Assembly (NCBI RefSeq): GCF_022763305.1
Contig: NZ_JALEGT010000071.1
Location: forward strand, 1-56,699
Origin: Marivita sp.
GTDB lineage: Bacteria > Pseudomonadota > Alphaproteobacteria > Rhodobacterales > Rhodobacteraceae
Length of the DNA stretch: 56,699 nt
Reading direction: 5' to 3'
Shown: piece by piece, positions 7,579 through 13,160 of the stretch
How the letters are laid out: every line of letters begins with the position of its first letter
Position numbering within the stretch: the stretch's first letter is position 1
Notes under the pieces: model-generated
The model's database searches: none
The model's input: only the letters and a program-made list of their open reading frames with translations
Told to the model about the DNA's origin: nothing
Program-made: the position numbers and the translations under genes

Positions 7579-8328
7579 CTAGACCGTCGCCGCTTCCTCG
7601 ATCAACGCCACCTCTGCGCCGTCGGCTGTCATCTTGCCCTGCGCGCGGTCAAAGCGCAGATAGGCCAGACCCTGGCCGCCCGACTGCGTGTAAAGCGTTC
7701 CCGCCGCCTTGCCCTCGGCGAGGAGCTCCGTGCCGACCGGGGCGGCACCGTCGACCGACACCCGGGCCAGCCCCTTGCGCAGTTCGGTCTTGTGCTTCAT
7801 CCGGGCGGTGACCTCCTGACCGACATAACAGCCCTTGCGGAAATCGACGCCGTTCAGCCGTTCGAACCCCATTTCAAGGATGAAACTGTCAGGCGTGAGT
7901 TCGATCCCGCTTTCCGGTACGCCAGCGGCGACGCGCCGCGCGTCCCAGTCAACACTGTCATCGCCGGGCTGCCCGTCATAGCCACGCCAGCCCATCGCCG
8001 GATCGCGCGGATCGCCAAAGGCGCCCTCGGGTGCCGGGCCCAGCCCGCGTGTCACGGACCGGGTGGTTTCTTCGATCCCGACCTTCGAGCGCAGCTTGTA
8101 CATCGTGAGCGCCTGCTTGAGACCCGGCGCCAATGCCCTGTCGACATCCAGCAGGATCGCATCACCCATGGGCACAAGAAAGAAGTCTGCCCGGTACTTG
8201 CCCTGTGGGGTCAGCATGGCGGCATAGACCAGACCCTGGTCCAGTTTCCGCACATCGTTGCTGACCAGCCCCTGAAGAAAGTCCCGCGCATCTGCGCCCG
8301 TGATTTCGAATACCGTCCGCTCAGTCAT
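7579..8328 (-). CDS. ygfZ: Folate-binding protein YgfZ (iron-sulfur cluster assembly helper)
   Basis: A 249-residue member of the GcvT-like YgfZ/IBA57 family, which uses tetrahydrofolate to support Fe-S enzyme assembly. The family signature is clear: KGCYVGQEVTARMKH, with the invariant Cys, near residue 175. The N-terminal half (DFLQGLVSNDV and AAMLTPQGKY) matches as well. The ATG at 8328 is preferred over one at 8367 because GAGG stands seven bases upstream and the shorter N terminus (MTERTVFEITG) is that of the family. It lies 57 bases after the DoxX gene on the same strand and may be co-transcribed with the bufferin operon. Confidence 0.92.
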   Translation of the reverse strand: MTERTVFEITGADARDFLQGLVSNDVRKLDQGLVYAAMLTPQGKYRADFFLVPMGDAILLDVDRALAPGLKQALTMYKLRSKVGIEETTRSVTRGLGPAPEGAFGDPRDPAMGWRGYDGQPGDDSVDWDARRVAAGVPESGIELTPDSFILEMGFERLNGVDFRKGCYVGQEVTARMKHKTELRKGLARVSVDGAAPVGTELLAEGKAAGTLYTQSGGQGLAYLRFDRAQGKMTADGAEVALIEEAATV

Positions 8329-8385: not shown

Positions 8386-8958
8386 TCAGGCGGTGGCGGG
8401 CGCGCCCAGCACCAACCGCGAGAGCATCCGGTCGACCGACAGGGCGCCGGCTCCCTTGATCACGAGGGTGACAAGGATCAACATCCAGAAGGCCCGCTGA
8501 TCGAGGATGACGCTGTCGGGCACCCGGTCGAACCACGCGCCCAGCGTTTCGGTATGGGCAATGCCGCCATGGCCATAGAGGTCGGTGAGCGATTGCACGA
8601 CCACGAACCCGATCATGCCGAGCGCGGCCAGACGGGTGAAAAGCCCGATCACCAAGAGCAGTGGCAGAATGAACTCGGCCCATGTGCCGGCGACGACCAC
8701 CGCCCAGTGGAAGACGCCCAACTGCGAGACATCATAGAGCACCGCTTCCATCTGTTTCGGGAAGATCTGCGCATAGGCCCCAGTCGAGGGGAGAAAGATC
8801 CCCATCAGACCATCGCCAAGCTTCGTGGCTGCGGATGCCCAGAAATAGACCAGCAGCGTGGCCGCAAAGACGACGCGGGCCAGCAACGGGATTAGCCCAT
8901 CCAACCGGCGTTCGACCTCGGCAAAGACGGTTTCGTGGAGAAAGGCAAGGCGATCCAT
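8386..8958 (-). CDS. DoxX-family membrane protein, BufD position of bufferin operon
   Basis: A 190-residue inner-membrane protein with four hydrophobic segments (about residues 22-45, 85-105, 105-125 and 155-175) of the DoxX family. DoxX proteins are often the last gene in operons with a DUF2282 peptide, an MNIO enzyme and a DUF2063 protein, for example gigABCD of Caulobacter. It follows bufC by 25 bases and has an AAGGACC ribosome site. A role in electron transfer or in handling the copper peptide at the membrane is suggested by the context only. Confidence 0.85.
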   Translation of the reverse strand: MDRLAFLHETVFAEVERRLDGLIPLLARVVFAATLLVYFWASAATKLGDGLMGIFLPSTGAYAQIFPKQMEAVLYDVSQLGVFHWAVVVAGTWAEFILPLLLVIGLFTRLAALGMIGFVVVQSLTDLYGHGGIAHTETLGAWFDRVPDSVILDQRAFWMLILVTLVIKGAGALSVDRMLSRLVLGAPATA

Positions 8959-8983
8959 GATGTGGTCCTTCGGTCTGGAAAAG

Positions 8984-9718
8984 TCAGGTGTTCAAGGCAA
9001 TTACGGCGTTGTTTGAGAGCAGCAGATCAAGCAGCGCAGCAAGGTCGAAGCTGTCGCCACCGGCGTCGATTGCAGTGCCGAACGGCGCACCTGCCAGCAG
9101 TGCAGTCAGCACGTCACCTGCGCCGGGGCCAAGGACATGGGGTTCGGGATCATATTCGGCGCGCAGGATCAGGACATCTTCGCCCCCGCCTGTCGGTTTG
9201 TCGCCGCCCCGCAAGGTGTAGCGCCAGATCGAGCCTGCAGGCCAGGGCGACCGGAGCAGGATCATCGAGGGGGCAAACGCAAAGCGGGTCGCCAGAAGCG
9301 CGTCTTCGTCCAGCGCCTGCAGCTCGGCTGGGTTGATGCCCGTGCTGTCGGCAGCGTGATAGCTCTGGCGCATGGCAAGATCGATGCGCGCGACATCTGC
9401 GAGATAGGGCAGGTGTTTGAGCTGGTCGAGGGTGGCGACGAACTCGGGCAGGCCCGCCCCGTAATGCATCATGAGCGGCGATTTCGGGGGAGACTGGCGC
9501 AGGAAGGCCCGTGCGACATGGTCGAAATTCTCGCGCCCGATCAGGCTCACCAGCGACGGGAAGCCTTCGGCCAGCGCTTCGCGAAGGGACACGGTGACGT
9601 TGTTGCGGTAGACGCCATAGCGCCGGCCGGCGGGACGGTTGCGGCCGTCGGTGAGGCCCTCCGGCTCTGGCGCGGACGGGTTGAGCAACCCGCCGCGAAA
9701 CTCTGCCTGACGTGTCAC
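8984..9718 (-). CDS. bufC: DUF2063 protein, putative MNIO partner BufC
   Basis: A 244-residue protein with the DUF2063 N-terminal domain (FRGGLLNP... [29 protein letters not shown]-x-x-YRNN motif) and a C-terminal beta-rich half. Such proteins act as the recognition partner that presents the precursor peptide to the DUF692/MNIO enzyme, as MbnC does for MbnB. The start is a GTG at 9718 that overlaps the bufB stop codon as GTGA, implying translational coupling. An ATG much farther upstream (9856) lies inside bufB and was rejected. No gene symbol is settled for roseobacters; bufC is used by analogy. Confidence 0.85.
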
Positions 9719-10572
9719 GCGAGCACCCGCGTCAGGGCGCCTGCGGCGCGACGGGCCTCGTCGGCCAGAACCGGCCAGTCGGGGACATCGGTGTCCCACT
9801 CCACCAGCAAGGGCTTGGGGCCTGAGCGCGCCAGCGTATGGTCCAAGAGCGCCCACACGGGATCCACAACCTCGCGCCCGTGACTGTCGATCAGCAATGG
9901 CGCGCCATGGTCGTCTTCGTCCTCGTCATGGCCGCCCAGATGGATTTCTGCGACAGCGTCCAGCGGGTAGGCGTCGATATAGGCTTGCGGCGAATAGTCG
10001 AGATTGGTGGCCGACACGAAGACGTTGTTTACATCGAGCAGCAGACCGCATCCGGTGCGGCGCACGACCTCGGCCAGAAAATCGGTTTCCGACCAGGTGC
10101 TTTCCGCAAAGGCCAGATAGGAGGACGGGTTTTCGAGCAGCATTTGGCGGCCCAGAACCGTCTGCACCTCGTCAATGTGATCGGCAACGCGGGTCAGCGT
10201 GTCGTTGGTATAGGGCAGGGGCAGCAGGTCGTTCAGGAAGTGACTGTCATGGGTCGACCATGCCAGATGCTCTGAAAAGCTTGCCGGTTTCAGCCAGTCG
10301 CAGAGACGTTTCAAACGGGACAGATGCTCGCGGTCCAAGCGGCCTTCGCCGCCGATCGAGAGACCCACGCCATGCACCGAGATCGGAAACCGTTCGGCCA
10401 GAACATTGAGTTGGGCAATCGGGCGTCCACCGTCGCCCATGTAGTTCTCGGCGTGGATTTCGAACCAGCCGACAGGGGAAGGATCGCTCAGGATGCGCCA
10501 GAAGTGCTGGGGTTTGTACCCGACACCGGGCAGGTTTGGCAAAAGCGGGAAACTGTGTGACGCGTCGGGCAT
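9715..10572 (-). CDS. bufB: DUF692 multinuclear non-haem iron oxidase (MNIO), putative BufB
   Basis: A 285-residue TIM-barrel enzyme of the MNIO family (MbnB/BufB), which oxidises cysteines of ribosomal peptides with an iron cluster. Metal-ligand motifs are all present: SVHGVG (His67), SEHLAW (Glu101-His102), LENPSSY (Glu147), LLDVNN (Asp180, Asn183), EIHLGGH (His211, His215), IDSHG (Asp229, His231) and VEWD (Glu258). It lies 67 bases downstream of the precursor gene and overlaps bufC by four bases. Its own ribosome site is weak (GAGACC) and it sits just behind an 11-bp hairpin, so it should be made in much smaller amount than the peptide. In known bufferin systems the product carries thiooxazoles derived from Cys; the same outcome here is inference. 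Confidence 0.92.
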
Positions 10573-10589
10573 ATCAGGTCTCGTGAGTG

Positions 10590-10615
10590 GTAAGCCGGGC
10601 AGATGCCCGGCTTAC
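10590..10615 (-). promoter_or_regulatory. Perfect 11-bp hairpin between bufA and bufB
   Basis: GTAAGCCGGGC and GCCCGGCTTAC flank a 4-nt loop. No T run follows, so this is not a simple terminator. Its place, after the precursor stop codon and 18 bases before the bufB start, is typical of hairpins that protect the 3' end of an abundant upstream message and give precursor excess over enzyme. Confidence 0.85.
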
Positions 10616-10639
10616 GCTTTGAGGGAGTGTCGGGTCAGA

Positions 10640-10945
10640 TCAGCCCTGCGGCAGGTCGCGGCTCAGTTCTTCGAGCGATCCCATGCGGGCTGTGCCGTCT
10701 GCCATCGCGGGCAGTTCGATCTCGCCACAGGTGCCTGCATCGACCAGCGTCCATGCGTTGCCCTGATAGTCCACGGTCGAGGTGCCGGCGCAGGTTGTGC
10801 CCGGGCCTGCAGCGCAATCGTTCTTGCCGGCGAGCGACACACCGAAGCACTTTTCCTTGGCCTGGGCAGTGGCCGTGGTGGTGTGTGCCGCGAGGCTTGC
10901 CGCGACTGCGCCAACGATTGCAACGGTCTTGAGAGCTTTCGACAT
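10640..10945 (-). CDS. bufA1: DUF2282 bufferin-type copper RiPP precursor (BufA1)
   Basis: A 101-residue secreted peptide. Residues 1-29 form a signal peptide ending TATAQA. The mature part begins KEKCFG and holds four cysteines (33, 44, 52, 73) in the DUF2282 pattern, with [20 protein letters not shown] matching the family core. The last 28 residues (ELP... LPQG) form an acidic tail. Members of this family are precursors of bufferins, periplasmic peptides whose cysteines are oxidised by an MNIO enzyme and which sequester copper. The start at 10945 is preferred to an ATG eight codons upstream because it gives a clean signal peptide and has AAGGACC nearby. First gene of the operon bufA1-B-C-DoxX. 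Confidence 0.9.
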
Positions 10946-11026: not shown

Positions 11027-11075
11027 GCGGCAGGCTGCCGCGCCATTCACGGCGGTGTGTTTCACGCGCGCGTGA
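11027..11075. promoter_or_regulatory. Two palindromes upstream of bufA1
   Basis: GCGGCAG-G-CTGCCGC (11027-11041) and the 14-bp perfect palindrome TCACGCGCGCGTGA (11062-11075) lie 82-130 bases before the bufA1 start. They sit in the only upstream control region of the operon and are candidate binding sites for a metal- or stress-responsive regulator; no such regulator is encoded close by. Confidence 0.4.
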
Positions 11076-11124
11076 CGCTAGGTGAACCAAGCATAGCAGA
11101 AATTTCCTTGATTTTCAGGGAAAT

Positions 11125-11157
11125 GAAAAAGGCCCCGTAACAAAAACGGGGCCTTTT
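11125..11157 (-). terminator. Intrinsic terminator of thrS
   Basis: On the minus strand AAAAGGCCCCGT pairs with ACGGGGCCTTTTT around a T-rich loop, with a closing T run. It lies about 24 bases after the thrS stop codon and insulates thrS from the bufferin operon downstream on the same strand. Confidence 0.93.
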
Positions 11158-11180
11158 CGAAACGTTCCGGGACTGGAATG

Positions 11181-13160
11181 TTACAGAAGATCGGGGGGAG
11201 TCGCGTCTTTGGACAGGCTGCTCACGATATCCGCCAGCGATGTTACAGACGTTTGCTTCTCGCCCAGACGGCGGACGGTCACGGTGCGCTCCTCGACCTC
11301 GCGGTGGCCGATGGCAAGGATCACCGGGACCTTGCCGACGGAATGCTCGCGGACCTTGTAGTTGATCTTCTCGTTGCGGATGTCCGCCTCGGCGCGAACG
11401 CCCGCCTTGGTCAGTTCCGCCACAACCTCCTGCACGTAGTCATCAGCCTCTGACACGATGGAGGCCACAACCACCTGACGCGGGGCCAGCCAGAAGGGCA
11501 GTTTGCCTTCCCAGTTCTCGATCAGGATGCCGATGAACCGTTCGAACGACCCAAGGCACGCCCGGTGCAGCATGAACGGCCGGTGCCGGTCGCCGTCCTG
11601 ACCGATATAGCTGGCCCCAAGGCGCTCCGGCAGGTTCGGGTCGACTTGGAAGGTGCCGCACTGCCAGACGCGGCCGATTGCGTCGGTCAGGTAGAAGTCG
11701 AGTTTCGGGCCGTAGAACGCACCGTCGCCGGGTTCGAGGGTGTAGTCCCGACCCACCGCCTTGATCGCGTTTTCCAGCGCGCCTTCGACATAGTCCCAGC
11801 TTTCGTCACTGCCGACGCGTTTTTCCGGGCGGGTGGCAAAGCGGATTTCGAACTCGGGGAAACCGAGCTCCTGGTAGACGTTTGCAAGGAAGTCGATGAA
11901 CCGTGCGCACTCGGCCTGAATCTGGTCTTCGGTGCAGAAGATATGCGCGTCGTCCTGGGTAAAGCCGCGCACCCGCATGATGCCGTGCAGCGCGCCCGAG
12001 GGTTCGAACCGGGCACACGATCCGAATTCGGCCAGCCGCAAGGGCAGGTCCCGATAGGATTTCAGGCCCTGATTGAACACCTGCACGTGGCAGGGGCAGT
12101 TCATCGGCTTGAGTGCGTTGATGCGGGTTTGATCCTTGTTCCTGGCGCTGGCATCGTCGTTTTCGCCGTCACGGCTTTCGTCGACTTCCACGATGAACAT
12201 GTGGTGCTGGTACTTTTCCCAATGCCCCGACGCTTCCCAAAGCTTGCGATCCACCACCTGCGGGGTGTTGATCTCGAGATACCCGCCGGCGCGCTGTTTG
12301 CGGCGCATGTAGTCCTGCAGGGATGTGTAGACGGTCCAGCCGTTGGGGTGCCAGAAGACCTGACCGGGGGCCTCTTCCTGCATGTGGAAGAGATCCATCT
12401 CGCGGCCCAGCTTGCGGTGATCGCGCTTTTCGGCCTCTTCGAGGAAGGTCAGGTACTGTTTCAGGTCATCGCGGTTCTTGAACGCCACACCGTAGATGCG
12501 CTGCAGCATCGGGCGGGTGTTGTCGCCAAGGAAATAGGCGGCCGAGACGTTCATCAGCTTGAACGCATCCGCAGGCACCTGACCGGTGTGCTGGAGGTGC
12601 GGACCGCGGCAGAGGTCCATCCAGTCGCCATGCCAATACATGCGGATGTCCTCGCCCTCGGGGATCCTGTCGAGGATCTCGACCTTATACGGCTCATTGT
12701 TGTCGGTGTAGTACTGGCGCACCTGATCGCGGGTCCAGAGCTCGGTCCGGACCGCATCGCGGGCGTTGATGATGTCTTTCATCCGCTTTTCGATGGCACC
12801 AAGGTCTTCGGGCGTGAAGGCCTCCTTGCGGTCGAAATCGTAGAACCAGCCATTGTCACGGACCGGGCCGATGGTGACTTTGACGTCGGGCCAGATCTCC
12901 TGCACGGCGCGCGCCATGATATGCGCAAGGTCATGCCGGATCAGTTCGAGCGCGGGCGCGTCGTCAGCCATGGTGTTGATGGCGATCTGCGCGTCGCTCT
13001 GGATCGGCCATTGCAGATCCCAGTGCGCCCCGTTCACGGTGGCGGAGATGGCTTTTTTCGAGAGGGATTTGGAAATGCTCTCGGCCACTTCGGCAGGGGT
13101 GACACCTGCGTCGAAGTTGCGTGCATTGCCATCGGGGAAGGTCAGGGAAATCTGGCTCAT
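11181..13160 (-). CDS. thrS: Threonyl-tRNA synthetase
   Basis: A 659-residue class II synthetase charging tRNA-Thr. Domains in order: TGS (1-62), editing domain with HDLAH (about residue 76) and LCRGPH for hydrolysis of Ser-tRNA, catalytic domain with the class II motifs (MNCPCHVQ zinc Cys, [21 protein letters not shown] motif 2, [17 protein letters not shown] motif 3), and the anticodon-binding domain (about 560-659). Length and all metal ligands are typical. A Shine-Dalgarno GAGGAGCTGG precedes the ATG. The acidic insert [17 protein letters not shown] in the catalytic domain is slightly longer than in E. coli. Monocistronic, closed by the terminator at 11125-11157. Confidence 0.98.

Follow-up and report, generated by a model that had tools for sequence, protein, structure and literature searches.

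A bufferin-1 operon from a Marivita-like bacterium and the conserved tandem palindrome upstream of bufA1

Described bufferin systems and their control

Bufferins are modified peptides that make up a large and new class. For the Buf1 system of Caulobacter vibrioides (CC3254-CC3257), the genes for a DUF2282 precursor, an MNIO enzyme, a DUF2063 protein and a DoxX protein are reported to follow one another in this order (PMC3511200). Of the four conserved cysteines of the precursor, the central ones are described as modified and the outer two as engaged in a disulphide, the product chelating periplasmic copper (PMC12452194), and these enzymes are reported to have 5-thiooxazoles as their shared product (PMC13097082). 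In published bufferin work, the signal peptide is said to be the leader as well (reference cited in PMC13419390). A comparable set of genes is found in gigPABT of Cupriavidus metallidurans, described as encoding a small exported peptide with four cysteines, the metal-binding GigA, a DUF2063 protein and a DoxX-like protein (PMC10304878). The oxazolin hvfABCX genes of Haemophilus influenzae and the fontiphorin fonABC genes are also reported to share an MNIO and a PME-type-1 partner that install 5-thiooxazoles, and HvfA carries a signal peptide, as BufA1 probably does. However, the oxazolin and fontiphorin precursors differ by their EGKCG repeats.

The published accounts of bufferin control considered here invoke sigma factors. 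The Caulobacter operons are reported to be under the ECF sigma F/NrsF pair, to have GTAACC-N16-CGAA promoters and to respond to dichromate (PMC3511200). In Cupriavidus, gigPABT is divergent from the rpoQ-rsqA sigma/anti-sigma genes and its control by RpoQ is assumed (PMC10304878), while RpoS was suggested for Legionella. We describe here a relative of Buf1 located in a stretch of 56,699 nucleotides (hereafter, the window) from a Marivita-like genome of the Roseobacter group. As compared with Buf1, it has the same genes in the same order and a precursor with four conserved cysteines, but it has thrS and a tandem palindrome upstream and no exact sigma F promoter, in a genus without NrsF.

Gene content, maturation proteins and neighbours

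The genes and protein regions considered in this section are the following:

10640..10945, minus strand: bufA1, bufferin-1 precursor of 101 aa, DUF2282 family (Pfam PF10048, 8e-24, 83.8 bits for a cut-off of 22.4)
10865..10945, minus strand: probable Sec signal peptide of BufA1, residues 1-27 (by eye: hydrophobic N-terminus, A-T-A before Q28)
10790..10816, minus strand: BufA1 core, central Cys44 to Cys52, located by alignment; the pair is reported modified in Buf1
10643..10726, minus strand: acidic tail of BufA1, residues 74-101, with a conserved motif from R87 to 99
9715..10572, minus strand: bufB, MNIO bufferin maturase of 285 aa (NF050167, PF05114)
8984..9718, minus strand: bufC, DUF2063 partner of 244 aa, GTG start (PF09836, 5.2e-22, residues 4-94)
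8386..8958, minus strand: doxX, DoxX-family membrane protein of 190 aa (PF07681, 3.2e-6, 28.1 bits for a cut-off of 23.6)
7579..8328, minus strand: ygfZ (CAF17-like), outside the system (TIGR03317, 86.7 bits)

The original prediction, made from the sequence, was of a complete bufA1-bufB-bufC-doxX operon, and this holds, the four genes occupying 10945 to 8386 of the minus strand. Searched against Pfam, as had been proposed, the four proteins exceed the cut-offs of DUF2282, MbnB_TglH_ChrH, DUF2063 and DoxX, respectively. The predicted coupling of bufB and bufC is also real, the GTG start of bufC sharing a GTGA with the bufB stop; the other spacings are 67 bases (bufA1-bufB), 25 bases (bufC-doxX) and 57 bases (doxX-ygfZ). 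The order had been likened to a Caulobacter gigABCD. Order and comparison with CC3254-CC3257 are right (PMC3511200) but the name is not, gig referring to the Cupriavidus gigPABT genes (PMC10304878).

All four gene relatives lie on one strand in each of the 80 named loci (the best 80 of 539 relatives), which argues that the gene set is not a matter of chance. The order bufA-bufB-bufC-doxX of the window is the same in those relatives that were inspected among these 80. Within the same best 80 of 539, the closest named species is Marivita geojedonensis (BufB, 91% identity), and Marivita is the only genus name given to the 12 nearest loci. On a wider scale, of 248 family genomes, every one from a different genus, 178 have DUF2282 and 178 have BufB; 177 genomes have both and each protein occurs alone in one. 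Among 61 relatives, own genome included, BufB and DUF2282 are each present in 41. In one genome (G260; loci L244, L245, L249), BufB was matched and no DUF2282 protein scored above the cut-off, a gap that may be missing data since this assembly is 75% complete.

BufB is the strongest assignment, with 374 bits to NF050167 (MNIO_BufB; NCBIfam cut-off 310) and 5.5e-104 to Pfam MbnB_TglH_ChrH. The predicted intactness of the enzyme is supported by alignments to 3bww and 8hci, where H67, E147, D180, N183, H211, D229, H231 and E258, which we take to be the MNIO metal-ligand motifs, are all kept. Thus, neither a peptide outside DUF2282 nor a loss of metal ligands in BufB was found. In HvfB, activity is reported to require N175, D242 and H244 (PMC13419390); matched by motif, the DVNN and DSHG sequences of BufB are their likely counterparts. 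The three maturation proteins fall well below the NCBIfam cut-offs of the oxazolin families, with 232 bits against 360 (BufB, HvfB), 34.7 against 142 (BufC, HvfC) and 27.1 against 80 (DoxX, HvfX). For BufC, an RRE search gave one profile with a weak match to TglI (8hci_C, E 0.039) and a wider profile with no match, and a PDB search with BufC alone returned only phosphatases with weak E values.

In BufA1, the four cysteines announced by the prediction are at positions 33, 44, 52 and 73. The alignment that had been proposed to examine them, made with 46 sequences from several alphaproteobacterial families, shows all four to be invariant together with G35, N42, G49 and G89. A PDB search with BufA1 gave no match. 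Second or tandem BufA1 copies occur within one buf cluster at L191 (G023), L096, L110 and L186 (G060).

The C-terminal tail had been singled out as worth comparing. It is indeed acidic (28 residues, 6 D/E, 2 K/R) but it is not special to this peptide, since the motif R.GS[LM]..[LQ].RD[LIV]P is present in all 78 distinct BufA1 sequences of the named loci (best 80 of 539; 79 sequences were available, L044 being left out as its bufA1 has no start on the contig). The linker ahead of the motif varies, with 8 residues in 10 sequences, 13 in 67 and 18 in one. A looser form of the motif is found in 141 of 149 distinct sequences, the eight others including the tandem second copies of two Shimia loci; these second copies (L096, L110) end with PSLE.LDRDLP, not GSLE. 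In other families, GSL stands near the BufA1 end in six of the eight loci whose ends were visible (L184, L187, L188, L189, L190, L192) and is absent in L183 and L186; BufA1 of L184 terminates with HGSLEPLMRDPG, near the elaborated form of the tail. With GSL in six of these eight other-family loci and the loose motif in 141 of 149 sequences, the tail is most simply read as an elaboration, within the lineage, of a GSL end that is shared more widely. The idea that it might be a follower bound by an RRE was lowered by the report that the signal peptide acts as leader (reference cited in PMC13419390).

Downstream, the 57-base gap to ygfZ, the other feature put forward for comparison, is as predicted, but ygfZ is 3' of the operon only in the 12 nearest of the 80 named loci (best 80 of 539), 11 of which also have efp close by. 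Because ygfZ is confined to these 12 loci, it is weak evidence for a shared function. It is very unlikely that ygfZ and the buf operon form a co-regulated unit of iron-sulfur repair against copper damage. The same strand, the short gap and the 12 loci would agree with such a unit; however, no ygfZ match was obtained in the remaining 68 of the 80 named loci (best 80 of 539), and ygfZ occupies the same position in a member of the genus without bufBC-doxX.

Since the operon has the core genes of the described systems, the same mechanism can be proposed for it, the chemistry, copper binding, export and disulphide being transposed from the published relatives. BufA1 would be made with a Sec signal peptide. 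A cytoplasmic BufB-BufC complex would then oxidise the central Cys44 and Cys52 to 5-thiooxazoles, leaving the outer Cys33 and Cys73 for a disulphide, and the modified peptide would be exported and would bind excess copper in the periplasm, with DoxX as a putative membrane accessory. A regulator, probably an activator, would control the operon from the tandem palindrome described below, taking the part played elsewhere by an ECF sigma factor and NrsF encoded next to bufA1. Taken together, it is very likely that the locus is a bufferin-1 operon of this type, producing an exported copper binder modified by BufB-BufC and driven from the element without a neighbouring sigma factor or NrsF. It appears unlikely that the operon rather answers another metal or an oxidant (gold, chromium, cadmium), copper buffering being secondary. 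The dichromate response mediated by sigma F in Caulobacter (PMC3511200) and the induction of gig by gold complexes as well as by copper (PMC10304878) would fit such a role, whereas Caulobacter Buf1 is reported to chelate copper and to aid growth in excess copper (PMC12452194).

The region between thrS and bufA1

The features upstream of bufA1 are:

11181..13160, minus strand: thrS, conserved upstream neighbour
about 11122-11160: inverted repeat and T run between thrS and the element, read from the sequence and not returned by a scan
11047..11073, minus strand: element that fits its pattern with 0 mismatches, a pair of ACG-N4-(C/T)GTGA-like units set 15 bp apart
11062..11075, no strand assigned: palindrome TCACGCGCGCGTGA within the element

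The thrS gene is upstream of the operon in 78 of the 80 named loci (best 80 of 539). Of the two others, L044 starts inside bufA1 and L060 has about 700 bases upstream. A Gibbs search of 78 upstream regions returned a single block of 37.3 bits, the best of three runs (17.0, 30.7 and 37.3). Its conserved columns, derived from 56 of the 78 loci after removal of near-copies, also include C-T-(C/G)-A-C, 9-13 bases before the first unit. With up to 2 mismatches, the element is found in 76 of the 78 named loci and in 0 of 1560 shuffles, the pattern having been learned on these same 78 loci; the two loci without it are at 3 and 6 mismatches. The chance expectation for the window at this threshold is 0.08.

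With 0-1 mismatch allowed, the element is also nearly unique within each genome of the genus. Each of the 16 genomes, out of 17, that have BufB carries such a match at its bufA1 promoter, and only three further matches, each with 1 mismatch, occur in the genus (G001, G008, G009). In 100 family genomes, which are not wholly independent of the pattern since it was built from family members, the strict core gave 28 matches, spread over 26 genomes; 20 of these matches immediately precede bufA1 (a share of strict matches, not of bufA1 loci), and the reversed pattern gave 3. Seven of the eight strict matches away from bufA1 have no common gene context by eye, the eighth being the site between spondin-like and xdhC-like genes described next. 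In the window's own genome (G000, contig C84:14658-14686; L116, about 1501-1527), a TGTGCTTCACGCGTTTGCGA-like block with 2 mismatches to the buf element lies between spondin-like and xdhC-like genes, named from sequence reading, and this block recurs in 6 genus genomes. A regulon shared with the xdhC-side site is not claimed, since the conserved block there extends towards xdhC. Single palindromes occur at 19 places in the own genome, where they were compared with overlapping open frames.

Judged from position, the transcription start most likely falls in the interval separating thrS from bufA1, with the conserved tandem palindrome just upstream, and the element is probably an activator site for a DNA-binding regulator. 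That the repeat has another nature, for instance as a repressor site, an RNA structure or a target of a nucleoid protein, is a serious possibility, even if a doubtful one. The element has no known factor, the start site is not fixed because the search of this stretch of the window gave no consensus sigma-70 promoter, and near uniqueness in each genome at 0-1 mismatches would be odd for the target of a regulator encoded elsewhere. Against this, L054 and L058 show by eye a TTCAAC-17-TAnnnT promoter-like pair directly after the last CGTGA, which would place the -35 immediately downstream of the repeats; no such pair is seen in the window. No paper on bufferin control in this bacterial group, or on the element, was found by title or abstract start in a search covering mostly literature outside subscription.

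The sigma F system of Caulobacter does not appear to extend to this genus. NrsF was found in 0 of 17 genus genomes with a positive Caulobacter control, and the exact GTAACC-N16-CGAA promoter has no match in the window; allowing 2 mismatches gives 3 matches in L212 for a chance mean of 1.97, all inside thrS. Other families, and deeper members of this one, do have ECF sigma factor and NrsF genes adjoining bufA1. Both genes are confirmed by Pfam in L194, which belongs to the same family, and in L188 and L185, which belong to others; in L023, again of the same family, Pfam confirms the sigma factor. These four are the Pfam-checked loci, the calls otherwise relying on tblastn at E 1e-5, some of them weak; in L288 both genes are downstream.

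The two situations were compared in 107 loci, a non-random set (24 earlier loci, 80 mostly from the top of the list and 3 short ones) including 9 from other families. thrS is adjacent in 60 when counted within 1200 bp (5 more loci have it 1285-2704 bp off), the element is present in 54 and NrsF in 17. NrsF co-occurs with the element or with thrS in none, and since the upstream stretches span 0.7 to about 5 kb, a more distant sigma/NrsF pair would be missed. Because the deeper members were picked once sigma genes had come to light, the proportion of sigma loci should not be read as an estimate. Among the 54 loci with the element, 45 have it beside thrS and 9 do not, one of these 9 being from another family (L187, 2 mismatches). 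At the same threshold of 2 mismatches, the element is absent from 53 loci, 15 of them beside thrS, and thrS, element and NrsF are all absent from 21, two of which have a sigma gene alone. Of the 19 loci that have a sigma gene, 13 show a GTAAC-N-(15 to 17 bases)-CG[AT][AT] pattern before bufA1, versus 9 of the 88 without one. On the BufB tree, the sigma trait changes 5 times and the element 18 times. Phylogenetically independent pairs, with 1 of the 107 rows dropped, gave 4 supported pairs and p = 1, a comparison without power. With so few pairs, the mutual exclusion of element and NrsF may correspond to one or a few evolutionary events. L327 and L302 have an adjacent thrS and a sigma-F-like promoter pattern with no element and no nearby NrsF; these two loci are possible intermediates of a promoter change.

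DUF2282 proteins with two cysteines

Four cysteines are kept in 147 of 149 distinct DUF2282 sequences (172 before removal of duplicates), these 147 not being individually confirmed as BufB-positive. The two exceptions are proteins from genomes without BufB. In G008, a member of the genus of the window, the protein (L182:3648-3944) is encoded by a single gene between thrS and ygfZ; if a GTG start is assumed, both central cysteines are gone, with C-Y-G, the last cysteine and the tail RRGALEPLDRD kept. In G170 (L246:5718-6011), the only such case among the 248 family genomes, the gene neighbourhood is different, the same two cysteines are gone, and the outer pair and a tail RRGALEPLERD are kept. 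The two proteins are 52% identical and the tree is compatible with one origin or two. With both used as queries, no third case was found in 394 family genomes, at most 12 candidates being scored per genome (188.9 bits for G170, 110.5 for the next).

Precursors without an MNIO are reported to be rare and presumably either to act without modification or to be defunct (PMC12452194). The open frames of G008 and G170 keep a signal-like N-terminus, the outer cysteines and the tail, which suggests that these proteins act without modification rather than being defunct. It is quite possible, though we propose it tentatively, that this Roseobacter/Rhodobacter family changed in two respects. Beside thrS, ECF sigma F/NrsF would have been lost and another regulator would read two CACG-N4-CGTG palindromes with a spacing of 15 bp, nearly always at this single promoter in a given genome. 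Where BufB is lost, DUF2282 proteins deprived of the two copper-binding cysteines would survive in another role that requires no modification.

In conclusion, the genes of the window are those of a sound, ordinary bufferin operon, and it is the control region and the two-cysteine relatives that deserve the attention of specialists. In this marine group, the operon seems to be controlled by a different element than in its best-studied relative. The two-cysteine DUF2282 proteins bear on the question, raised in PMC12452194, of whether MNIO-less precursors are dead or serve a function that is modification-free, and the conserved, nearly single-copy element offers a precisely defined sequence for seeking the sensor in marine bacteria.
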